Source: a virus. Taken from it: DNA of 29,615 nucleotides. Under the pieces are notes generated by a model that made no database searches, was not told the DNA's origin, and saw only the letters and a program-made list of their open reading frames with translations. Below are positions 3,164 through 29,494 of this stretch, in pieces (the stretch's first letter is position 1; the number at the start of each line of letters is the position of its first letter). The position numbers and the translations under genes are program-made. The stretch spans positions 1-29,615 of the IMG/VR virus record IMGVR_UViG_3300033145_000608; one strand, given 5' to 3'.

Positions 3164-6063
3164 TACAAGTCCTGCGCCTCTAATACTTTATTCCCGTTCT
3201 CTACTATAACAGCCATCTCAGCCGCATCGATATCAACCCTCAATTCCTTCCCCAATATTGCCTCTTTGATTTCAGTTATCCTATCTTCAAGGGCTTCTAA
3301 GCGTAAATTAACAGGCTCTAAATCAACTATTAAATTGCTATTAATATTACTCACATTCGCCGTAGAACCGCCGGTATCGAACGCAAATGCCGGTTGTGGT
3401 ATATCAACCCCCGGGAATGCAACCTGACTCAATATCTCTTTGGTCTTCTGAGGAAATGCCATAATCTTTGTCAGCAGTCCCGTTCCGAGTATCCGCGTCG
3501 CCGGTGCATTGACAACAAATTCTTCACCTTCTTCATTAACCTGGATCGTCTGCTTACCGCCCCGCACAGGACCACCTTGCGCAAACCCCTTCCGAAAAGA
3601 ATTAATAGCCATAACAGTAGCCCCAATCGCTGCTACTGCCAGGGGAATTCCAAACGGACCTAATGAGGAAAAAAAACTAAAAATAGATCCTGCCGCCGCC
3701 CATATACTAATCGCAACCTTTTTTGTCGCTGCCCATATATCCAAGGCAATCATCCGCAATATAGAATCTGAATGTGATTTTTCTATAGCCTTATCGGTAG
3801 TTTCCTGCACGATTACTTCGATAGCCTTCTGTTTGATCCAGTTTGCCGTCATATCTGCGACTGCTCCAATGAATTGTCGTTTCATTGTTTCCCAGGCTTT
3901 TTTAAGGCGCTCATTGCCTTTCATTGTAGTGTCGGTCAGTGAATATACAAATGATCTGTATCCACCCAGCATCGAATCCAATATAGCCATTTCAAATTGG
4001 CTTTGTTCAAGCGTTTTCTCTGTTTTCCAATCCCAATACGCCTGATCCAACTCCTGCTTAGACATATTCTTTTGTTCAGCAATAATCCGCTCAGCCTCAG
4101 CCTGGTCCATACCGGCAGTAAGCAATCTTTGTAATTCAGCGGCATATTGTGAATCTATCTCATTATTACGCCATTCATAATAGCTATCATCCTCAAATTT
4201 CACCTGGTTATAATAATCACTATAACCGCCCATGATTGTAGCATATTTTTCTTTTTTTGCCGCTATTTCTGCTGTATCTAATGCTGTCTCTTGCTCTTTT
4301 CTCCAGTCCAGTAATTTTTGATATGCCGCTTTAAACTCCGGAGTGCCTTTCTCAAATGTCGCTGCCAGATTGGCTTCTTGCGCTTCAAACTCGATCTTTA
4401 TCTTCTGACGTTCGGTCATTTTCGATTCGTCATAAGCCTTCGCCCATGATTCCCAGGCGGCTTTAGCCTTCTTGATAGTGGCTTCCTGCTCGGCTGTAAG
4501 TTCAATCGCCGTCTCGGTAGCGCTTGAAACTTCCTCTACTGCTCCGGTAACTTCTTTCACATCGATCTTGGCAGCCTGCCAGATTTCTTTTGATTTTGCG
4601 CCCAGTCCATCGAAGGTGTCCAGTAAGGTCCCGGCGTTTGCCTTAACGTCATCCATAGCGCCCTGGAAGCCTGTAGTGATCCCTCTTTTTGCAATCTCAA
4701 AAGCCCCGGCAAAATCACCGCTTAACAGTAATTTCCAGGCGGTCCCGATATTAGTGAATACTTCCTTGACTGTCTCCCAGAGTATCTTCCATGGTAACGT
4801 GACAATGTCAATTGCCAGCGATCCAAAATTCACCAGTCCCTGACCAAACGCCTTGATATATTCCCATGTAATTTGGATGGAGGCTTTTGCATATTCCCAT
4901 GCCTGACGCCAGCCGCCGATTTTCTGAACTCCTATATTAAGAGCTACTCCCAATGCAACTAATCCCGCTATAATAGCCACAACTGGATTGGCAAGTAATG
5001 ACAGATTCCAATTGATAGTTGCTATTTTCGCCGCTACTAATCCAAGCGTAATTGCTCCGAGTGTAATTATTATTCCCTGAAATACTGCCTGGTTTTCATT
5101 GAGATAAGTGACAATATTCGACATTATGGACATAACAGGAAGTAGGGCTTTTTTGACCATATCACCTATTTTCTCTTTTAGATCCCCGACGATATTAGTG
5201 TATTGAATTATAGCACCGGCACCCGTCTTAGTTTCTTCTTGTGCCAACTTAAAACCGTCTGCCATATTTCTCTGCAATATCGCCATTTTCTCGGCTTCTG
5301 TCTTCGCCGATCTGAGCTCCGGTATGTAACGCTGTAATTGTGTGAAGTTGCCCTGGTATGCCAGCGCTATGCCCTTTAGAGCCAATTCCTGAGACAATCC
5401 CGCATCCTTGAATGCCGATGCTAATCCAATTGCTCCCTGTGTAGCTTCTATAACTTTATCCTGGGAAACTTTCATATTGACGGCTAATCCCATCAGCATT
5501 TCAGATTGCTCATCTCCGACGGTTGTCACCTTCTGAATAGCCGATGCTGTATCTTTTAGTTTCTTAAAATATGCGTCGGTATAAATCCCCTTGATTTTCA
5601 GCGTATTGATCAGGCGGTTATCAGCTTGCTCCTGCATATTGCTTGCCGTGACCCAGCCGCCGATCACGCCCGTAACCTTCCGAATACCCATCGTGATAGC
5701 GCCCACGGCAATGCCCATGCTGGCAATCGAATCGGTCAGTGATTTTGCGCTGCCGGTGAATACCGTATTATGCTTTTTAGGGACCTTCTTAACCGCCGCT
5801 TCTGCTTTGCCAGCCTCGGTCTTAATCTTCTTACCATCAGCGTCTAATTTGACCTCCTGCTGGGCTTCCTTGCGGAATTGATCATAGATGCCGTCAAGTT
5901 TCTTGATCTCATTTTTAAATGCCGATTCATCGACGTCAACCCGTATCCCAGAAGCGATTTCAGTGAACTGCGTCCTGAATGATTTCCCCATATTCAGCGC
6001 ACTCACAAGCCCCTTGGAAAAAGGCTTTAAGTCAAGCGTCATCTGTATTTTTAATTCAGCCAT
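3163..6063 (-). CDS. tail tape measure protein
   Basis: At 966 residues this is the largest gene in the window, lying directly downstream of the frameshifted tail chaperone, the hallmark position. The N-terminal ~320 residues are alpha-helical and end in a segment typical of phage tail tape measure proteins (ALAYQGNFTQLQRYIPELR). Hydrophobic helices follow near 330-375 (IIITLGAITLGLVAA, LLANPVVAIIAGLVALGVAL). Next comes a long charged coiled-coil region (~540-740), a second hydrophobic stretch (~800-850, GPFGIPLAVAAIGATVMA) and a Gly-rich turn (FAQGGPVRGG). It sets tail length and is thought to help DNA cross the inner membrane. There is no sheath gene nearby, which supports a non-contractile tail. 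Confidence 0.93.
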   Translation of the reverse strand: MAELKIQMTLDLKPFSKGLVSALNMGKSFRTQFTEIASGIRVDVDESAFKNEIKKLDGIYDQFRKEAQQEVKLDADGKKIKTEAGKAEAAVKKVPKKHNTVFTGSAKSLTDSIASMGIAVGAITMGIRKVTGVIGGWVTASNMQEQADNRLINTLKIKGIYTDAYFKKLKDTASAIQKVTTVGDEQSEMLMGLAVNMKVSQDKVIEATQGAIGLASAFKDAGLSQELALKGIALAYQGNFTQLQRYIPELRSAKTEAEKMAILQRNMADGFKLAQEETKTGAGAIIQYTNIVGDLKEKIGDMVKKALLPVMSIMSNIVTYLNENQAVFQGIIITLGAITLGLVAAKIATINWNLSLLANPVVAIIAGLVALGVALNIGVQKIGGWRQAWEYAKASIQITWEYIKAFGQGLVNFGSLAIDIVTLPWKILWETVKEVFTNIGTAWKLLLSGDFAGAFEIAKRGITTGFQGAMDDVKANAGTLLDTFDGLGAKSKEIWQAAKIDVKEVTGAVEEVSSATETAIELTAEQEATIKKAKAAWESWAKAYDESKMTERQKIKIEFEAQEANLAATFEKGTPEFKAAYQKLLDWRKEQETALDTAEIAAKKEKYATIMGGYSDYYNQVKFEDDSYYEWRNNEIDSQYAAELQRLLTAGMDQAEAERIIAEQKNMSKQELDQAYWDWKTEKTLEQSQFEMAILDSMLGGYRSFVYSLTDTTMKGNERLKKAWETMKRQFIGAVADMTANWIKQKAIEVIVQETTDKAIEKSHSDSILRMIALDIWAATKKVAISIWAAAGSIFSFFSSLGPFGIPLAVAAIGATVMAINSFRKGFAQGGPVRGGKQTIQVNEEGEEFVVNAPATRILGTGLLTKIMAFPQKTKEILSQVAFPGVDIPQPAFAFDTGGSTANVSNINSNLIVDLEPVNLRLEALEDRITEIKEAILGKELRVDIDAAEMAVIVENGNKVLEAQDL

Positions 6064-6566: not shown

Positions 6567-7067
6567 CTATGCGCTTGTAATCTGTAACTGACTGTCAGCG
6601 CTACTGATAAGCGTAATGGGCAAATACCACAATTCACCGCCTTTGAAAGCCGCATCCAGATTCCCTTGCATGAACATCCATGAGGCGGTCCATGTCTCAA
6701 CTGTTGCACCATCGCTCTGACGAACCTTGAACTGACAATGATAAGTTGGCAAGACGTAGCACCTGGTAGACTCCACAATTGCATCTGTCACAGCAGTTTC
6801 ATCATTTAATGTCTTTTTCAGCAACGCCAGGTCAGCGCCCACTAATACAGCTTTGATCTCGATTTTTGCGCCAATGTCAATCTTGCTATCCGGTTCCTCG
6901 GACTGCGAAGTAATTACATCTAAGATATGCGGATCGATTTTCACCGATACGCCTTCCTTCTGAACCGTGTTAGCCGCTGCTGCTTCCACCGCTGTAATTA
7001 CCGCAGCCATATCCGCTTCGGAACTCGAAGCAACGTATTTCAGATCATATCCATTAATTCTTTCCAC
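6567..7067 (-). CDS. tail tube-like protein, copy 2
   Basis: A 166-residue protein just upstream of the tail chaperone, the usual place for the major tail (tube) protein. It is a clear paralogue of the preceding gene: the segments KIDPHILDVITSQSEE, KIDIGAKIEIKAVL and FKGGELWYLPITLISS match KVDPHILDVIHSGSEE, KIDVGATVEIKAVI and FKGGEIGYVPLTVKSS-type segments at the same positions. The beta-rich content fits a tube fold. Which copy forms the tube and which is a minor or terminator form cannot be settled here. Confidence 0.75.
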   Translation of the reverse strand: MERINGYDLKYVASSSEADMAAVITAVEAAAANTVQKEGVSVKIDPHILDVITSQSEEPDSKIDIGAKIEIKAVLVGADLALLKKTLNDETAVTDAIVESTRCYVLPTYHCQFKVRQSDGATVETWTASWMFMQGNLDAAFKGGELWYLPITLISSADSQLQITSA

Positions 7068-7083
7068 AATATTTCTCCTTCTT

Positions 7084-7608
7084 TTATGTTGCTAAAATAT
7101 AACCGGTGAGGACTTCATCCGCCTCGGTAAGTAACTCAAAATAATCCGGGGTTAACCCGTCATCCTCGCCGTATAGCGTTTCTTCCACTAATATTTGAAG
7201 TACGCTGGTATCGGTCGATTTTACCGTCAGCGGAACATAGCCGATTTCGCCGCCTTTAAATTGCAGATCCCAATTCTTTTCAACAGTGCAATTGCTCAGG
7301 AAGAAATGCTTGTCAGCGCTGCTTGACATCTTCACGCTGAACCGTACATCCTGTCTGTCAATCAGGTCCATGACGCCGAGTCGGTCAGCCGGTCGCAATA
7401 CCACGCCCTCTATCACCGCCTTGATCTCTACAGTCGCTCCAACGTCGATCTTCTGATATGTTTCCTCCGAGCCACTGTGGATCACATCAAGAATATGCGG
7501 ATCAACCTTAAAATTGAGCCCTTCCTTTGCCAGGTTGTAGGTGGTCCCGACAAACAGATTGCCGACACCGGCAATCTCAATCTGCTTAGCGTGCAGCCAT
7601 TCAGACAT
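7084..7608 (-). CDS. tail tube-like protein, copy 1
   Basis: A 174-residue paralogue of the next gene downstream, sharing the PHILDVI..SEE, IDVGA.VEIKAV and FKGGE...P.T segments in the same order. It is a tail-tube candidate from its position before the chaperone and tape measure. It carries an extra C-terminal ~25 residues (ETLYGEDDGLTPDYFELLTE) absent from copy 2. Its start overlaps the end of the upstream 103-residue gene by 8 bases. Tandem tube-like genes may make a mixed tube, or one may cap it (inference). Confidence 0.75.
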   Translation of the reverse strand: MSEWLHAKQIEIAGVGNLFVGTTYNLAKEGLNFKVDPHILDVIHSGSEETYQKIDVGATVEIKAVIEGVVLRPADRLGVMDLIDRQDVRFSVKMSSSADKHFFLSNCTVEKNWDLQFKGGEIGYVPLTVKSTDTSVLQILVEETLYGEDDGLTPDYFELLTEADEVLTGYILAT

Positions 7609-7912
7609 TCAAAACCTCATGCGCTTTAGTAATCGCGGCGTCGGCAAAGGCGTCATAGTCTTTCCATTCTGTGGACAATTTTGACATCCGCCCCATCTTG
7701 AATTCATCATTAGCGCTGTATTTCGTGCGAATAATCGCCTCTACAATCGCCTCTATAGTCTTCTCCGGAACCCAAACCTGGTCATATTCATACCAGGTTT
7801 CCATTTCGCCGGATTCATTGACCACCTCGACGGTGCGCTCATTGTAATTCAACATCCAGCCTTTTTTGTGAGGCTGGAACTGTGTTTGCTGATTTGGCGT
7901 TTTAATAGTCAT
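7601..7912 (-). CDS. hypothetical phage protein between DGR and tail genes
   Basis: A 103-residue protein with an AGGTG site upstream of ATG 7912. No family is assigned with confidence. The C-terminal half (IIRTKYSANDEFKMGRM, then a Tyr/Trp helix ending KAHEVL) resembles small tail-fibre-associated proteins of the DUF4376 kind, a weak pattern match only. It lies 7 bp after the DGR small gene and overlaps the tail tube gene, so it belongs to the tail transcript. Confidence 0.6.
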   Translation of the reverse strand: MTIKTPNQQTQFQPHKKGWMLNYNERTVEVVNESGEMETWYEYDQVWVPEKTIEAIVEAIIRTKYSANDEFKMGRMSKLSTEWKDYDAFADAAITKAHEVLNV

Positions 7913-7919
7913 GTATCAC

Positions 7920-8210
7920 CTATGTTAATGAATAATATCGGTTAATTTTCCGTATCGTTGCCAGAAATGGCAGCTCGTGCTCATACTTTTCCATCTGATC
8001 AATAAGCACGTCGCTTCCGGTAAATATCACATATTTCTTTTCGCTGATCTCTATCTGTAATGTGAGATATTTTCCACTTTCATTTTTACTGTAACGGCTG
8101 TCTTTGATTGAATATGCCAATATCGCGACTTCCTTGTTTAGCACATCGTCAATGCGCATCTTATCACCGTCCAGTACTTTCTCTTTTGAAAAATCCGAAT
8201 ATCGCTTCAT
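7920..8210 (-). CDS. small DGR-linked protein, possible OB-fold nucleic-acid binder
   Basis: A 96-residue protein whose ATG overlaps the reverse transcriptase stop (ATGA), so translation is probably coupled and the product made with the RT. The sequence suggests a compact beta barrel: VAILAYSIKDSRY, GKYLTLQIEISEKKYVIFTG, then VLIDQMEKYEHELPFLATIRK. This looks like an OB-fold single-strand binder (inference). No Avd-like helical gene is seen between target, template and RT, so this protein may be the accessory factor. It shares the opening residues MKRY with the RT, which may reflect a copied start region or chance. The function is unproven. Confidence 0.7.
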   Translation of the reverse strand: MKRYSDFSKEKVLDGDKMRIDDVLNKEVAILAYSIKDSRYSKNESGKYLTLQIEISEKKYVIFTGSDVLIDQMEKYEHELPFLATIRKINRYYSLT

Positions 8211-9259
8211 ACAATCCCTTGGAGCGGATTACGGCGGTACTTACATACCTGCTTAACGATCCAAAATAGATTATCATTGATATAAGCATTAAGCAGATTC
8301 CGGCAATTGGCGTATTTCATCCAGCCCCAATAACTCATCACGCTATTAACAATTTGGCTATATTTCATCTTTGACCAGTTGCGCTCAATGGATATCATTC
8401 TCGATTTAAACTTTGTCGCAATGCTTTTTCTAAGCAGCGTATATCCGTGAAAAAATCTGTATCCAAGAAAATCAATGCCGCGGCTGTCAACCGGAAATAC
8501 CTGCCAGTTATCCTTCAGGTTTATTTTTAATTCCTGTTTTAAATAAGTCTCAATTTGTTTTTGTAATTCGTGCAGAGCGGTTTTTGATTCATCCATAATC
8601 ACAATATCGTCACAATAGCGATAATAATAGCGGACTCGCTTCTGTTCTTTAATCCAATGATCCAGTTCCGATAGGTATAAATTTCCGAAATACTGACTTA
8701 GATAGTTGCCGATCGGCAATCCCTTTGTGCTATCTATTATCTCACTCAGTAGCCACAATAGATCCCGGTCTTTAATCTTTTTCCGAATTACACGCTTTAG
8801 GACCTTGTGATCAACCGACGGATAGAACTTCTTAATATCCATTTTAAAACAATATCGAGTCTTAACCTTATCCCGTAATGCTTTTTTAATCCGCCTTACT
8901 CCGTCGTGAATACCTCTGCTTTTTATGGAACTATATGTATCCCTGATCAATGTCGGAAACCAGATCGGCTCCACGACCTGCATAATGCAATGATGAATGA
9001 TACGATCTGGAAAGTAAGGAAGTTTGTATATTTCACGAATTTTCCCATTATCAGTCTTTTTGGAAAACACCTTATAAGGCGAATTTTCAAAGGTTTTGTT
9101 TTTTAACATATCATAAATCATTTGAAAATATTTCTCCGGATCAACATCAACCATCTTAACTTCCCTGTAGTGGGTTTTACCCTTCCGGGCGTTATAGTGT
9201 GCTTTCCGGATATTTTCCAGATCATAAATTTTGTTGAATAGATTTCCGTAGCGTTTCAT
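8207..9259 (-). CDS. DGR reverse transcriptase
   Basis: A 350-residue group II-like reverse transcriptase. Visible motifs are: motif 2-like IYKLPYFPDRIIHH (~77-90); motif A KMDIKKFYPSVDH with Asp141; motif B PIGNYLSQYFGN (182-193); the catalytic YCDD box at 215-218; and FLGYRF (264-269). The IGxxxSQ form of motif B, instead of QGxxxSP, is the signature of diversity-generating retroelement RTs. There is no maturase or endonuclease domain, and the length fits DGR RTs. The enzyme would copy the template repeat RNA with errors at adenines and pass the cDNA into the variable repeat. It lies 126 bp downstream of the template repeat on the same strand, and its stop overlaps the next gene. Confidence 0.97.
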   Translation of the reverse strand: MKRYGNLFNKIYDLENIRKAHYNARKGKTHYREVKMVDVDPEKYFQMIYDMLKNKTFENSPYKVFSKKTDNGKIREIYKLPYFPDRIIHHCIMQVVEPIWFPTLIRDTYSSIKSRGIHDGVRRIKKALRDKVKTRYCFKMDIKKFYPSVDHKVLKRVIRKKIKDRDLLWLLSEIIDSTKGLPIGNYLSQYFGNLYLSELDHWIKEQKRVRYYYRYCDDIVIMDESKTALHELQKQIETYLKQELKINLKDNWQVFPVDSRGIDFLGYRFFHGYTLLRKSIATKFKSRMISIERNWSKMKYSQIVNSVMSYWGWMKYANCRNLLNAYINDNLFWIVKQVCKYRRNPLQGIV

Positions 9260-9385
9260 TATTTCCTTGTTTGCTTATGTCACCTCTGGTTCTTCGATCC
9301 CGATTCATCAGGACTACCAAACCAAATGAGGCTCTGCTTTGTATTTTGCCAAGAGGCAGGGTCTCCATGCAGATCGTAATAATAA
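9260..9385 (-). ncRNA. probable TR RNA 3' part / spacer before RT
   Basis: A stretch with no credible gene between the template repeat and the RT start. In known DGRs the TR is transcribed with flanking sequence that the RT needs for priming, and the downstream flank toward RT is part of that RNA. The assignment here is from position only; no strong hairpin was identified. Confidence 0.4.
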
Positions 9386-9503
9386 GCATAGACGCGTGCC
9401 GATATTGGAATTGGCATTCGACGAATCGTTATTCGAATTCACGTAGAAAACGCCAGTTTTGCCACTGTTATTCGCATTACTGCCGACATGAACGACACGT
9501 TTT
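9386..9503 (-). repeat. DGR template repeat (TR)
   Basis: A 118-bp non-coding repeat between the target gene and the RT, at a constant offset of 163 bp from the variable repeat. Base-by-base comparison gives 99 identities and 19 mismatches. All 19 mismatches fall on plus-strand T of the TR, that is A in the transcribed sense: ten A-to-G, eight A-to-T and one A-to-C. The TR has 34 such adenines, so 15 are unchanged. Read in the target frame the TR has no stop and places AAT/AAC Asn codons at many variable sites, the usual DGR design. Confidence 0.97.
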
Positions 9504-9506
9504 GCA

Positions 9507-9524
9507 TGAAAACCTCAATTTTCA
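9507..9524. other. hairpin between variable repeat and template repeat
   Basis: A perfect 6-bp inverted repeat, TGAAAA/TTTTCA with a 6-nt loop, lies 18 nt past the target stop codon and 4 nt before the TR. Some DGRs need a short hairpin or cruciform just downstream of the variable repeat for efficient retrohoming. This one is about 24 bp from the repeat end, farther than in the Bordetella phage, and has no T-tract, so it is not a typical terminator. Confidence 0.45.
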
Positions 9525-9542
9525 AAAAACATCGCGTACCGT

Positions 9543-10892
9543 TTACCGGCAAAGACGCGCGCCGACATCGGAAATGGCAACCGACGAATCGTTAAACGAA
9601 TTCACGCAGAAAACGCCAGCCTTGCCACCGCTAATCGCATTACCGCCGACAAGAACGACACGGTATCCGGAATTCGGACCCGTATCAAAACAGGTATAAT
9701 AATAATCACATACTTTTGTCGTTTCTGAACCAGCAGTAGCTTTCGGTAAGAATCCTAATTTCGTTGCTATTAATGCCGATATATATCCACTAACTTCAGC
9801 CAGCGTATCATTCGGAACTACGTCATGGTTAGTAATAGTGTCATCGGCAAAGTTAGCCGGATCATCGCACAGAAAAGCGTAAGAAGCGTAAGCATCCCCG
9901 CCGAGCGGATCATAATTGCGAATGTTAATACCATCCAGAAATTGCCATATATTGCCGAAAATATCTTCAATTCCTCGATATGATACATAGTCGCCTGAAT
10001 TACCACTTGTAGTACTCTGCCCGCCGCTGGCATTACCGTCACCATTAGACTTCCCGGTAGCGGCGATACAAGTTGCAAAATTCCATGAAGCAAATTTCGT
10101 ATTACCGGCGCTGATCATAGCCTGTATATTGAAGTCGGCATATTCGGTGATATACAATAATTGCACAGCGGCTTCGAGAGAATAATTCAATTGATGCCAT
10201 CCGGATCCACGCGCCTCAGCAGATGTACGGAAGGTCGCTCTCGTTTCATTCGTGATCGGCTTTTTCCCGCTGATAGAACTCAGCTTATCTCCGGCTGCAT
10301 ATTGAGTGCCGCCACCATCGCCGTCTATATAGGCAGACGCTGTAATGTCATATAAGACGCCCGGATAAGCTCCGAAATATCGATAATCATATTCGGTTGC
10401 GCCTTTTCTGAATGCGGGATGTAATTCAAATCCTGCCCGCTCCACAGGTGATACCCAATAGCGATGTTTGCTACCGTCCTTTTCGTATTTATACCAGAAC
10501 TTCGGAATCTCTACCATCACTTGCCCATCGGAACCATCCAGATTAGCAGGTGTAACGCCATCTTCTTTGTAGTTGCTGTTTCCCGGGGATAGATAATATT
10601 GTACCTCCCCTGCATCATTTACAACACAACGTTTCATATTAGCCTGAATAGGTAGTAAAATATCATCCAGTGTTTGGCTGCATGGAAACCCAGCCAGCGC
10701 TCCGATACGGGAATATGTATCTAACGATTCATCCCATTCTACACCATAAGCGCCCTGCTCATAGGAGCCAAGCAAAACATTCCCTATCCGCGATCTCTTG
10801 GTATTACCGCTGTCTTCGCTGTCAATTAAAACCACCTGGTCATAAGCGACCGGCAATGATTTCTCTGTCAATGCTGATAATTTCGTACCCAC
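9543..10892 (-). CDS. DGR variable protein, C-type-lectin/FGE-like, tail-tip adhesin
   Basis: A 449-residue target of the retroelement. The N-terminal ~40 residues (DQVVLIDSEDSGNTKRSRIG) match the start of phage fibre-like proteins. The C-terminal domain is of the formylglycine-generating-enzyme/C-type lectin type used by DGR targets, with SYRGIEDIFGNIWQFLDGI at 304-322. The variable repeat covers about residues 410-448. Fourteen residues differ from the template coding: 410, 414, 417, 420, 421, 422, 425, 429, 433, 438, 440, 442, 443 and 445, mostly template Asn/Thr/Ser. Two further changes (424, 447) are silent. The GTG start at 10892 overlaps the upstream stop (TAGTG), with GAGG 7 nt before it. 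It probably forms the receptor-binding tip. Confidence 0.95.
   Translation of the reverse strand: MGTKLSALTEKSLPVAYDQVVLIDSEDSGNTKRSRIGNVLLGSYEQGAYGVEWDESLDTYSRIGALAGFPCSQTLDDILLPIQANMKRCVVNDAGEVQYYLSPGNSNYKEDGVTPANLDGSDGQVMVEIPKFWYKYEKDGSKHRYWVSPVERAGFELHPAFRKGATEYDYRYFGAYPGVLYDITASAYIDGDGGGTQYAAGDKLSSISGKKPITNETRATFRTSAEARGSGWHQLNYSLEAAVQLLYITEYADFNIQAMISAGNTKFASWNFATCIAATGKSNGDGNASGGQSTTSGNSGDYVSYRGIEDIFGNIWQFLDGINIRNYDPLGGDAYASYAFLCDDPANFADDTITNHDVVPNDTLAEVSGYISALIATKLGFLPKATAGSETTKVCDYYYTCFDTGPNSGYRVVLVGGNAISGGKAGVFCVNSFNDSSVAISDVGARLCR
9549..9666 (-). repeat. DGR variable repeat (VR)
   Basis: A 118-bp partner of the TR occupying the last codons of the target gene. The 3' end in the coding sense is GC-rich (GGCGCGCGTCTTTGC, plus-strand 9549-9563), in the place of the initiation-of-mutagenic-homing element. 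Runs free of template adenines (for example 9608-9619) are identical to the TR. The repeat ends at 9666 on the 5' side, where non-adenine mismatches begin, and at 9549 on the 3' side, one codon before the stop. Confidence 0.96.
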
Positions 10893-11356
10893 TATGAAAC
10901 CTCATTATATCTGCGTTCAATTATTAATTCAACATCTTCGCCTTCTTCAAAACAGGACGCGAACGCCGCCCAGTCTTTAGGGTGAATTGTCAAACAGGCT
11001 TTTGATCCGCGCCAGATATCTGACCAACCTACATGAATATCCACATGATCGGCATACTGATTTCCACCCTGATTAGGATTCGGGCATATCGTCGGTATCC
11101 TGCCATTATTTTCAACATCGAATCCCGGCTTGCCGTTGTGTGCGGTCATAGAGAATCGCGCCCGATAGGTCCCGGAAGCGACCGCCCCGGCGTAATCGGA
11201 AAGTTTTTGATCGTGATCTTTCGGGTTAAGCGGATTGGGCCAGGTAGAGCCCCGCAGCCGGGCGAGAACATTATCACCTTTTGTAATAATATATACCTCT
11301 GCGAGATAACCAATTTGGCTCCATCTGCCTTCTTCCTGAAAACGTATTCTTTTCAC
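10892..11356 (-). CDS. L,D-transpeptidase-like peptidoglycan enzyme, candidate lysis protein
   Basis: A 154-residue protein with the layout of a YkuD/L,D-transpeptidase-like fold. GTYRARFSM and HNGKPGF segments are followed by VDIHVGW with His108, then after nine residues the SKAC segment with Cys121 (118-121) and LTIHPKDW. In L,D-transpeptidases a conserved His precedes a catalytic Cys in an S/T-x-G-C motif; here the Gly is replaced by Ala. There is no signal peptide. It follows two small proteins, one with a membrane helix, so it fits a lysis group (endolysin role inferred). It could instead act on cell wall at entry, or belong to the related DUF5675 phage family. Confidence 0.65.
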   Translation of the reverse strand: MKRIRFQEEGRWSQIGYLAEVYIITKGDNVLARLRGSTWPNPLNPKDHDQKLSDYAGAVASGTYRARFSMTAHNGKPGFDVENNGRIPTICPNPNQGGNQYADHVDIHVGWSDIWRGSKACLTIHPKDWAAFASCFEEGEDVELIIERRYNEVS

Positions 11357-11573: not shown

Positions 11574-11810
11574 TTACCTCTTGTTAAGCATTTTATAAAT
11601 CTTTTCAATGTTCTTAGTAATATCTAAAAGTTGCTTTTGGATAAACTTATATTGTGCGTCATCCACTGCCTGTTTTTTTTCCAAATCCGAAACCCGTTTA
11701 TCCATGATTTTTATGTCCTTATAGAATGTTTTCAGGACAATCAAAAAGCCTGATAATGCCAGGGTGAATACAACCTGTAATACTACAAAAGCAACCTGCC
11801 AGGGGCTCAT
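11574..11810 (-). CDS. small membrane protein with coiled coil, holin/spanin-like
   Basis: A 78-residue protein with one N-terminal membrane helix (~5-27, VAFVVLQVVFTLALSGFLIV) followed by a charged helical tail with coiled-coil periodicity (DKRVSDLEKKQAV, LLDITKNIEKIYKML). This topology suits a single-span holin-like or spanin-like protein. AGGGA lies before ATG 11810. The neighbours are a secreted protein upstream and the transpeptidase-like enzyme downstream. The specific lysis role is inferred. Confidence 0.6.
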   Translation of the reverse strand: MSPWQVAFVVLQVVFTLALSGFLIVLKTFYKDIKIMDKRVSDLEKKQAVDDAQYKFIQKQLLDITKNIEKIYKMLNKR

Positions 11811-25251: not shown

Positions 25252-26781
25252 TTATAATATTGTCATTTCTTGTTTCTGCATTATTTGCAGGATATTCTTG
25301 CGTTGAGCAACATATTCCTCAGCGGATTTACGCCGTATTTTCTTCTGTTGCCCGACGATCTGATGCAGGCTTTTATTGTTACTGAGAGCAGAGGCTTTCC
25401 CGCGCATCGGCGCTTCAAAAAGAAATCGGTCTTTAGCATCATACACCAAAATCGAAATCACATTTCCGCGCTCATCAATATTCCGCGGATCGAAGCGGAT
25501 TCCTACTTTTTTACCTTCAAGATTCACCATTCCTGGATGATAATACCAGTTCTGACGTTTGAACTTGAAATAGATTCCCTGTGAATGTACCCGGTGCAGC
25601 TTGGTATCCGGGCGCATCAGCAGCAGCTGTAGATCATCGGGATTGATCAGCGGGCGTGGCTTATAACGCTCATCCCAGACCATTTCCGGCGATTTTCCGC
25701 CCAATCCGCCGTGTTTCCGGTTATTGTACTCCCACATTATTTCGTCAAGCCGGGCTTCCATTTCCCGGAAATTCGGTATTTTGTCCAGTTTAATTTTGTA
25801 CTTACGACCGCCAGCCGCCACAACCCCCTTGAATTCCTCCGGACGTTCTATCACATTAGACCCTACATACCCGTAATATCGCCGTTCAAGATTGTGGATC
25901 GTGCGATGTGCGGGTTCGATTGGCTTCGCTTTGGCGTTATAAGGCAGCGCAAAGATCACATTCATATTGAATCGCTGATAAATACCGCGCACCACAACTT
26001 CATCGATCTCTTGCCGGTACTGGTTGTACTGTTTTCCGCTTGCATCTATGCCGGTGAACATTTTACTCTTATAATCCCTGCCATTATCGATATAGACGTT
26101 CTGAGCGATCCCGTATTTCAAGATCGTGTAGTATAATGCCAGGTTGATTGTATCCTGCGACGGCATCGTTGAAAGCACCCAGCCGAGCGCCTTCCGCGTT
26201 CCTATATCCATCCACCAGGTCACCCAGGGTCGGAATAGAGTTCCCTTATCCGACATCATAAACATATCCATGCGATAATGATCTGAATTGATCAATTCCA
26301 GCGGCTCAAGTTCATTAAGATTCCGCTCAATGTAAGGATTGCTGTCATCAAAAGCCCTCTGACCATGACAAAAAAGCACCTTTACCGGGTTCGGTATCTC
26401 CTCAAATGCCCGTAGAAAGGTCTGATAACTGACCGGCTCCTGGTTGATTGTGTCGCAAAACGGGATATAATCGGTCTCGTAGATCGTTAGGCTCTTCGGT
26501 TTATTCTGATTTAACATTAATTCACATATATACGCCTGTTGTTCCGGCGTCATTTTTCGCCTGCCTTCACGACGTAGATGCGCATGGTCCGCGAGTCCCG
26601 GCAATCCGTATTTTTTATAATTCTTTTTCCATGTGAAATATGTCGAGCGGCTGATCTGAAATTTTTTCAACACGTCCGGCAGGATATACCCTTTACGCTT
26701 CATCTGCTCTATACCATTTATAATATGTACGCGCGCGTAGCAGAGATCCCGTTGCCGTTCCGTCAAATCACTCAAAGTCAT
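25252..26781 (-). CDS. MuA-like DDE transposase
   Basis: A 509-residue transposase. An N-terminal HTH region (~35-60, LKKFQISRSTYFTWKKNY) is followed by the catalytic rve core with Asp167 (NSDHY), Asp232 (YIDNGRDY) and Glu289 (KPIEPAHR). The spacing of 57 residues between the second Asp and Glu is close to MuA (336 to 392). A C-terminal beta region (~390-470) matches the Mu transposase C domain. It would cut at the phage ends and replicate by transposition. It probably binds the three repeats at 29336-29494. The start overlaps the preceding gene by 14 bp. Confidence 0.96.
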   Translation of the reverse strand: MTLSDLTERQRDLCYARVHIINGIEQMKRKGYILPDVLKKFQISRSTYFTWKKNYKKYGLPGLADHAHLRREGRRKMTPEQQAYICELMLNQNKPKSLTIYETDYIPFCDTINQEPVSYQTFLRAFEEIPNPVKVLFCHGQRAFDDSNPYIERNLNELEPLELINSDHYRMDMFMMSDKGTLFRPWVTWWMDIGTRKALGWVLSTMPSQDTINLALYYTILKYGIAQNVYIDNGRDYKSKMFTGIDASGKQYNQYRQEIDEVVVRGIYQRFNMNVIFALPYNAKAKPIEPAHRTIHNLERRYYGYVGSNVIERPEEFKGVVAAGGRKYKIKLDKIPNFREMEARLDEIMWEYNNRKHGGLGGKSPEMVWDERYKPRPLINPDDLQLLLMRPDTKLHRVHSQGIYFKFKRQNWYYHPGMVNLEGKKVGIRFDPRNIDERGNVISILVYDAKDRFLFEAPMRGKASALSNNKSLHQIVGQQKKIRRKSAEEYVAQRKNILQIMQKQEMTIL

Positions 26782-27081: not shown

Positions 27082-27915
27082 TTAATTGCCGATTATTTGT
27101 GATGCTTCTTTGATCAAATCGCGCAGATGTTTGATTTCAGCGGTAAAAACAGGATCTGTGGCCGTCAAATCAGCGTTGCGGACGATTTCAATCACAGTTT
27201 TGATTTGTTCAGACAGGCTCTGGATTGCCTTTACACGGGCTTCCGGCTTCTGGCTGTCTAATAATGCTTTGTATTTTATACGCATTGCACGGTTTTTTTC
27301 CTGTTCTTCAGAGAGATATGTCCGCGCTATATCCAGTTCCGCCGCCGTTTTTTTCTTTTCGTCAATCAATTCCGCCTTTTCACGAATCGAAGCCTGGTCT
27401 ATCGTCTCCCGCAGCGATGTGTTTTCCTTCACCATATATATGATCTTATCCCGGACGTTCTCACTTGCCGATTCCGGCGACATAATGAAATCGATAACCT
27501 CTTTGCGATAATTGTCCGGCAGCCGCTTTACCGCGCGAATGTCACGGATCGGGATATTGAGTTGCTCCAGCTTGTTTGCAATCTCTTCCCCGAAGTACGC
27601 CATATTGCCGAGATGCTCTTTTACTGTGCCATAATTCATTCCGATTAACTCACAAAACGCCGGAAATGATGGTGCAAATTCTAATAGATCTGCGTTTTTA
27701 TTACGGTATGCTAATTGAATTTTGTAGAGTTGTGAGTATTGCAAACCGCGGTTAAAAAGTTCAATAGTATCTGCATACTGAATCATTCCAATTAATTTGT
27801 AGATATCATTTTTGGAGGTGACGTCACCTTGAGAAAAAACCTTTGTCGTCGAGAGTGTGTTATTTATTACTTCGTTTTTCAAGGTGACGTCACCCTGAGT
27901 CTTACTTTTCGTCAT
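27082..27915 (-). CDS. hypothetical early protein with QGDVT repeats and coiled coil
   Basis: A 277-residue protein. The first 40 residues contain two related peptides, TQGDVTLKNEV and SQGDVTSKNDI. A middle region follows with FAPSFPAFCELIGMNYGTVKEHLGN, which could be HTH-like, and IPIRDIRAVKRLPDNYR. A long charged coiled coil (~150-235) completes it. ParB/replication-partner-like features are possible but not shown. GGAGG lies 6 nt upstream of ATG 27915. It lies between the first early genes and the transposase, so it may regulate or assist transposition (inference). Confidence 0.65.
   Translation of the reverse strand: MTKSKTQGDVTLKNEVINNTLSTTKVFSQGDVTSKNDIYKLIGMIQYADTIELFNRGLQYSQLYKIQLAYRNKNADLLEFAPSFPAFCELIGMNYGTVKEHLGNMAYFGEEIANKLEQLNIPIRDIRAVKRLPDNYRKEVIDFIMSPESASENVRDKIIYMVKENTSLRETIDQASIREKAELIDEKKKTAAELDIARTYLSEEQEKNRAMRIKYKALLDSQKPEARVKAIQSLSEQIKTVIEIVRNADLTATDPVFTAEIKHLRDLIKEASQIIGN
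27816..27829. promoter_or_regulatory. palindrome AGGTGACGTCACCT
   Basis: A perfect 14-bp palindrome within the start of the 277-residue gene, sharing its central 12 bp with a second copy at 27883-27894. It is a possible operator for a dimeric protein, although it also encodes the QGDVT peptide repeat. Confidence 0.45.
27883..27894. promoter_or_regulatory. palindrome GGTGACGTCACC
   Basis: The second copy of the 12-bp palindrome, 66 bp from the first and only ~20 bp inside the gene. The spacing is about six helical turns, so both could be bound on one face. Confidence 0.45.
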
Positions 27916-29242: not shown

Positions 29243-29335
29243 ATCACCGCGTTTATAATATTTGTTATAGAACGCTCACCCTATTACATGCCCTATAATC
29301 ATTTATCAATACCTAATTATGAATAGCCAAATATA
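29243..29335. other. non-coding gap between repressor and end repeats
   Basis: No gene is seen. The stretch is A/T-rich and separates the repressor stop from the first transposase-site-like repeat. No clear terminator hairpin was found for the repressor. Confidence 0.5.
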
Positions 29336-29360
29336 CAAAGTAGTCCAGTTTAATTTTATA
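29336..29360. repeat. transposase end site, inner copy (L3-like)
   Basis: Contains AGTAGTCCAGTTTAATTT, with a 22-bp core at 29339-29360 identical to the second copy. It lies 42 bp from that copy in the same orientation, matching the L2-L3 spacing of Mu. Confidence 0.8.
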
Positions 29361-29376
29361 AAAAACCCAAAAACTC

Positions 29377-29402
29377 AAAAAGTAGTCCAGTTTAATTTTA
29401 TA
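29377..29402. repeat. transposase end site, middle copy (L2-like)
   Basis: The 22-bp core (29381-29402) is identical to the inner copy. The 42-bp spacing is four helical turns. It is the likely binding site of the MuA-like protein. Confidence 0.8.
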
Positions 29403-29472
29403 TATTTTTAATCCACAAACACAGTATTAGTATATGTTATTTAACCGTTTACACAATACCCACAATATTCAC

Positions 29473-29494
29473 AAAAGTCCAGTTTAATTTGATA
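29473..29494. repeat. transposase end site, outer copy (L1-like), next to phage terminus
   Basis: AGTCCAGTTTAATTT at 29476-29490 is identical to the core of the other two; the flanks differ. It is 92 bp from the middle copy. In Mu the L1 site lies a few bases from the end, so the phage terminus should fall shortly after 29494. A CA dinucleotide at 29503-29504 would fit the TG...CA ends of this transposase class. Confidence 0.75.

Follow-up and report, generated by a model that had tools for sequence, protein, structure and literature searches.

We read the element described here, with high confidence, as the diversity-generating retroelement (DGR) of a Mu-like temperate phage from a lineage that lacks Avd. 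The window, by which we mean the whole stretch of 29,615 bases analysed, is an IMG/VR virus record, and a single strand of it (the minus strand, on which all cassette features given below lie) carries, in order, the target, the variable repeat (VR), the template repeat (TR), a structured RNA, the reverse transcriptase (RT) and an accessory gene. DGRs of this general kind have been described before; what makes this one useful is the way in that it offers to DGR function in the absence of Avd. A sequence-only reading of the window had called the DGR complete. The target, VR, TR and RT that it named are all present, but the archetypal component Avd is absent, and two features had gone unnoticed: a structured RNA in the spacer and an accessory gene for a protein with a predicted OB fold.

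Judged by its gene content, the host phage is a Mu-like temperate phage. The window encodes a MuA-type transposase and a MuB-type ATPase (PF02914, 8.3e-15; PF09299, 2.3e-9; phrog_296, 5.7e-66), together with a terminase, a portal, a ClpP-type head protease, a major head protein and a tape measure. The DGR cassette sits in the late gene run, with head and lysis-like genes on one side and the tape measure on the other. Directly upstream of the target, on the minus strand, are two lysis-like genes at 10892–11356 and 11574–11810 (their products are a small membrane protein resembling XhlA and a 154-aa protein); because these adjoin the target, the cassette lies between lysis-like and tail genes.

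Repeats, target protein and reverse transcriptase

First, the two repeats differ in the way expected of adenine mutagenesis. Aligned without gaps on the minus strand, the TR (9386–9503) and the VR (9549–9666) share 118 positions and differ at 19, every one of them (19/19) at a TR adenine, with ten changes to G, eight to T and one to C; together with the 34 adenines of the TR, these counts and coordinates are exactly those of the sequence-only reading. None of the 84 non-adenine positions of the TR differs from the VR, and the hypergeometric chance that 19 mismatches all fall among 34 adenines of 118 positions is 4.5e-13, which bears out the mutagenesis signature claimed there. The direction of change assigns the two copies: it is the A of the copy at 9386 that is altered, so that 9386–9503 is the TR and 9549–9666 the VR. 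A separate repeat search recovered the same pair at a spacing of 163. The TR contains 19 diversifiable codons (nine of them AAY), which give a coding capacity of ~1e18 protein variants, and stops are possible from its two AAA codons.

The VR forms the final 39 codons of the target gene ahead of CGG-TAA. This gene (9543–10892) has a GTG start, ends just past the VR and encodes a 449-aa tail protein of the family phrog_5302 (tail, E = 5e-96). Its AlphaFold model is of moderate quality (AF2, pLDDT 67; weak at the N terminus, at 261–301 and at the extreme C terminus) and contains a C-type-lectin fold over roughly residues 84–443. The sole strong structural match of the model is TaqVP (5vf4; Foldseek E = 3.8e-4; VIA Z 17.7 over 260 residues, rmsd 3.3), a DGR variable protein with a C-type-lectin fold (PMC6328139). 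This match supports the view, already put forward from the sequence, that the target is a C-type-lectin DGR variable protein. The protein is probably the receptor-binding tip of the tail, and the tail-gene context, together with the predicted fold, makes a change of host tropism through it plausible. Downstream of the VR, a 6–7 bp hairpin at about 9507–9524 is within chance expectation, and a search for a conserved hairpin 3′ of the VR gave a mean stem of 4.0 compared with 3.9 in shuffles.

Second, the RT (8207–9259) is a 350-aa open frame with the motifs YCDD and IGNYLSQ, the latter being the IGxxxSQ motif reported earlier; with its frame open and its catalytic motifs present, it is intact. 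It matches PF00078 (1.9e-19) and phrog_1423 (3.9e-120), and its best PDB match is 8ub7_A (1e-37), the sequence of which fits that annotated for the brt product of BPP-1. These comparisons support an RT of the DGR type whose nearest solved structure is the BPP-1 DGR RT.

Avd, the spacer RNA and the accessory gene

Avd is the archetypal fourth component of DGRs and, to our knowledge, has been called indispensable in the single DGR system examined in depth. We searched for it in the window and in relatives drawn from an RT-based scan, which gave 112 loci (80 viral and 32 from genomes). The bAvd family (PF22296) was absent from the window and from the viral records of close relatives, with a BPP-1 control at 2.2e-37, and a two-sequence Avd profile had no match in the 112 related loci. 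PF05635 had no match in the window, a result that is uninformative because this model misses BPP-1 as well. On these profile searches, the DGR likely belongs to an Avd-less lineage.

The spacer between the TR and the RT encodes a structured RNA (9267–9389). Only two Rfam families match it, RT-17 and RT-18; the match to RT-17 (RF03020) covers 9267–9363 at 64.8 bits (GA 40.4, E = 1.1e-11), and RT-17 scored above its gathering score in the TR–RT spacer of 15 of the 25 relatives scanned. Four helices are supported when 19 spacers are aligned, with 97.8% of cells paired and two-sided changes in 13 of 17 pairs, compared with 4.8 in shuffles and 1–4 in slid controls. The closing helix, P1, pairs a 5′ arm (GCUUAU, 9382–9387) that overlaps the final 2 nt of the TR with a 3′ arm (AUAAGC, 9273–9278); it is 96.5% paired, with two-sided changes in four of its six pairs, and, being formed from the TR 3′ end and the spacer, lies outside the Rfam RT-17 model. 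From the spacer alignment we built a model, R1 (9268–9389 in the window, where the spacer scores 83.1 bits as one of the training rows). Counting the training rows, R1 detected the spacer in 91 of 95 relatives with an E limit of 1 and in 78 when E had to be below 0.01; it had no match in BPP-1, L116 or ANMV-1. The RT-17 match and the covarying structure in TR–RT spacers identify RT-17 as the DGR RNA of this lineage. Rfam lists RF03020 as an sRNA and gives it no DGR role, so that an RNA defined by covariation would give a role to a family listed only as sRNA. Within this RNA, the A at 9315, the invariant A of GGUAG in an invariant alignment column, is a candidate cDNA-priming adenosine, picked out only by eye in comparison with A56 of BPP-1.

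Directly after the RT lies a gene for a 96-aa protein (7920–8210), the ATG of which lies in a 4-nt overlap with the RT stop. Its AF2 model is good (pLDDT 89.5), and the structural neighbours of the model are nearly all OB folds, including SSB (VIA Z 6.2), RPA, LEF-3 and the RuvBL OB domain; because the structural scores are middling (Z at most 7.0; Foldseek E above 0.08), we regard an SSB-like OB fold as the likely fold of the model rather than a proven one. The protein has no family in Pfam, NCBIfam or PADLOC, its sequence returned only noise against the PDB, and its only family match is phrog_19665 (annotated function unknown). Pfam-based DGR surveys miss the gene because no Pfam model of it exists.

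Of the 112 related loci, 50 have a homologue after the RT, and one weak match (L105) lies upstream of the RT. The gene is missing from the other 62 loci, some of which are on contigs that end early. Its distribution, which is patchy and follows phylogenetic clusters, covers 33 of 68 lineage representatives and implies at least four gains or losses. Given these 62 loci, the lineage as a whole can do without it, and, with so many relatives lacking it, the OB protein may raise efficiency rather than be essential.

Such patchiness would also fit an ordinary DGR that happens to adjoin a phage gene of unrelated role, such as a replication SSB, with Avd, if needed, acting in trans. Small OB-fold proteins are common in phages, and about half of the related loci are without the 96-aa gene, but the linkage of the gene to DGRs makes us think this account improbable. 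In two relatives, the RT and the accessory domain are fused in one ORF, with the domain as its C-terminal part (L063, 5806–7236; L064, 5992–7251). When 395 Bacteroidota genomes were scanned without an RT query, all five matches directly followed a DGR-type RT, four of them independently, as G025 is the scan centre with the query row. The two family matches in a phage collection, one in a Methanosarcinales virus and the other in the archaeal virus ANMV-1, both follow an RT as well. We therefore prefer the reading in which the 96-aa protein likely partners the RT, binding RNA or cDNA, as its predicted fold and its linkage suggest; with its RT fusions, the gene is a concrete accessory candidate. 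A 103-aa gene at 7601–7912 is also found after the RT in some relatives, with weak conservation.

Activity of the lineage and a proposed mechanism

The repeat pattern recurs among the relatives. In a search for ungapped repeats that tolerated mismatches at template A only, a TR/VR pair was found in 92 of the 112 related RT loci, always in the order target–VR, TR, RT. Pooled over the pairs, the mismatches number 1139 A>G, 412 A>T and 302 A>C, figures to be taken as description only, because the search admits only A mismatches by design. Comparison of VRs between contigs provides an independent test, in which the aligned stretch is again one with VR–TR differences at A only. The VRs of relatives with identical TRs differ only at TR adenines, both in the trio L003/L004/L005 (14/14, 18/18 and 10/10 differences) and in the pairs L034/L035 (16/16), L037/L039 (12/12) and L089/L090 (13/13). 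Near-identical relatives that share a TR and have VRs unlike only at template A indicate that the lineage is active in nature. The sequence-only reading had suggested looking in other genomes for the same TR with different VRs; such sets exist among these relatives, but not for the TR of the window, as a search of other viral contigs for its TR/VR core returned no contig with the same TR.

For the window, the zero non-A differences between the repeats, taken with the relatives, suggest a DGR that is apparently recently active. An inactive relic, the repeat pair of which records past diversification, seems to us very doubtful. A relic is hard to square with identity at all 84 non-A positions, with open RT and target frames that retain the catalytic motifs, and with the fresh A-only VR divergence in relatives whose RTs are 58–66% identical. 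Weaker still, to the point of being negligible, is the idea of an RT of another class (group II intron, retron or DRT) beside coincidental repeats: generic RT models do match the RT (group II RT, 3.9e-33; Drt3a, 6.3e-24), but it misses every curated NCBIfam cut-off (group II, retron and DRT far under), among solved structures it is closest to the BPP-1 DGR RT, the repeat pattern is vanishingly improbable by chance (4.5e-13), and its recurrence in 92 related loci refutes the idea.

One relative, L035, differs in layout from otherwise similar DGRs. It contains a near-perfect 1.08-kb direct repeat (1–1075 and 4177–5251), and its VR (1327) is 4.4 kb away from its TR (5754). We propose that the direct repeat is an insertion or an assembly artefact.

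Taking BPP-1 as a guide, the DGR of the window could work as follows. A transcript with the TR and the RT-17 spacer would fold to bring the end of the spacer into pairing with the 3′ end of the TR, and helix P1 would set the start of the cDNA at the end of the TR. The RT would bind this TR–spacer RNA, prime cDNA from within the RNA and misincorporate opposite template adenines, and the mutated cDNA would then replace the VR, which would alter as many as 19 residues on the tail protein's C-type-lectin face. The OB protein would work with the RT, either holding the RNA, as Avd does in BPP-1, or binding single-stranded cDNA in homing. If true, the Avd-less, OB-linked lineage would be a second solution for the DGR ribonucleoprotein.

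Relation to known systems

The BPP-1 DGR (mtd-avd-TR-brt) shares with the window TR/VR differences at A only, a C-type-lectin target with the VR at its 3′ end, a homologous RT (1e-37) and a structured spacer RNA between TR and RT, which in BPP-1 is RF03022 (Phage_DGR). Unlike BPP-1, the window has no Avd, RT-17 rather than RF03022 as its spacer RNA, an OB-fold gene after the RT and a Mu-like phage as its setting. The Thermus aquaticus prophage DGR, the source of TaqVP, shares the target fold (Z 17.7 over 260 residues) and, unlike the window, carries avd (PMC6328139).

The DGR of ANMV-1, the first from an archaeal virus (PMC4372165), has the same order of target, TR, RT and OB-family gene (AJP62065.1); it differs in that the R1 RNA is undetected and the host is archaeal. 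Between target and RT, ANMV-1 (L123) has a single annotated ORF, at 3211–3405, which lies largely on the TR (3194–3309) and has no Avd match; we consider AJP62065.1, after the RT, the better candidate for its accessory protein. Hankyphage (PMC6199706) gives precedent for a DGR in a Mu-like phage: it too is a Mu-like transposable phage with a DGR, a C-type-lectin target and repeats of 117 bp. It differs in its Bacteroides host and its 2,200-residue target, and an Avd-like ORF has been proposed in it from size and charge (PMC6199706).

How far the arrangement extends is a matter on which we are tentative. A major DGR lineage, spanning Bacteroidota, phages and archaeal viruses, might lack Avd and carry an unrelated OB-fold accessory that is sometimes fused to the RT, with RT-17 in its bacterial-phage part; we rate this as possible, at somewhat less than an even chance. 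The Avd-less, OB-linked form of DGR may be new, and we would claim only hesitantly that it is previously unreported: no text in the literature covered, which does not take in Wu 2018 or Weinberg 2017, ties DGRs to OB folds or to RT-17. PMC10053308 states that one of the DGR accessory proteins put forward by Wu et al. 2018 lacks a Pfam model. As the 96-aa protein also has no Pfam model, it may be the same unnamed accessory gene.

Elsewhere in the phage record, a sequence similar to AGTCCAGTTTAATTTTATA occurs three times at 29330–29494, close to the right end, and a fourth, weaker copy lies at 25770–25800, within the transposase gene; these copies might serve the Mu-like phage as operators or as end sites bound by the transposase. 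The neighbouring minus-strand genes at 6567–7067 and 7084–7608 encode similar proteins with a common ...DPHILDVI..S.SEE...KID.GA..EIKAV... pattern, and the pair probably arose when a tail-tube-like gene was duplicated in tandem. At 27806–27899 (minus strand), a short direct repeat produces a near-duplicate peptide (..QGDVTLKN / QGDVTSKN..) at the N terminus of a 277-aa ORF.
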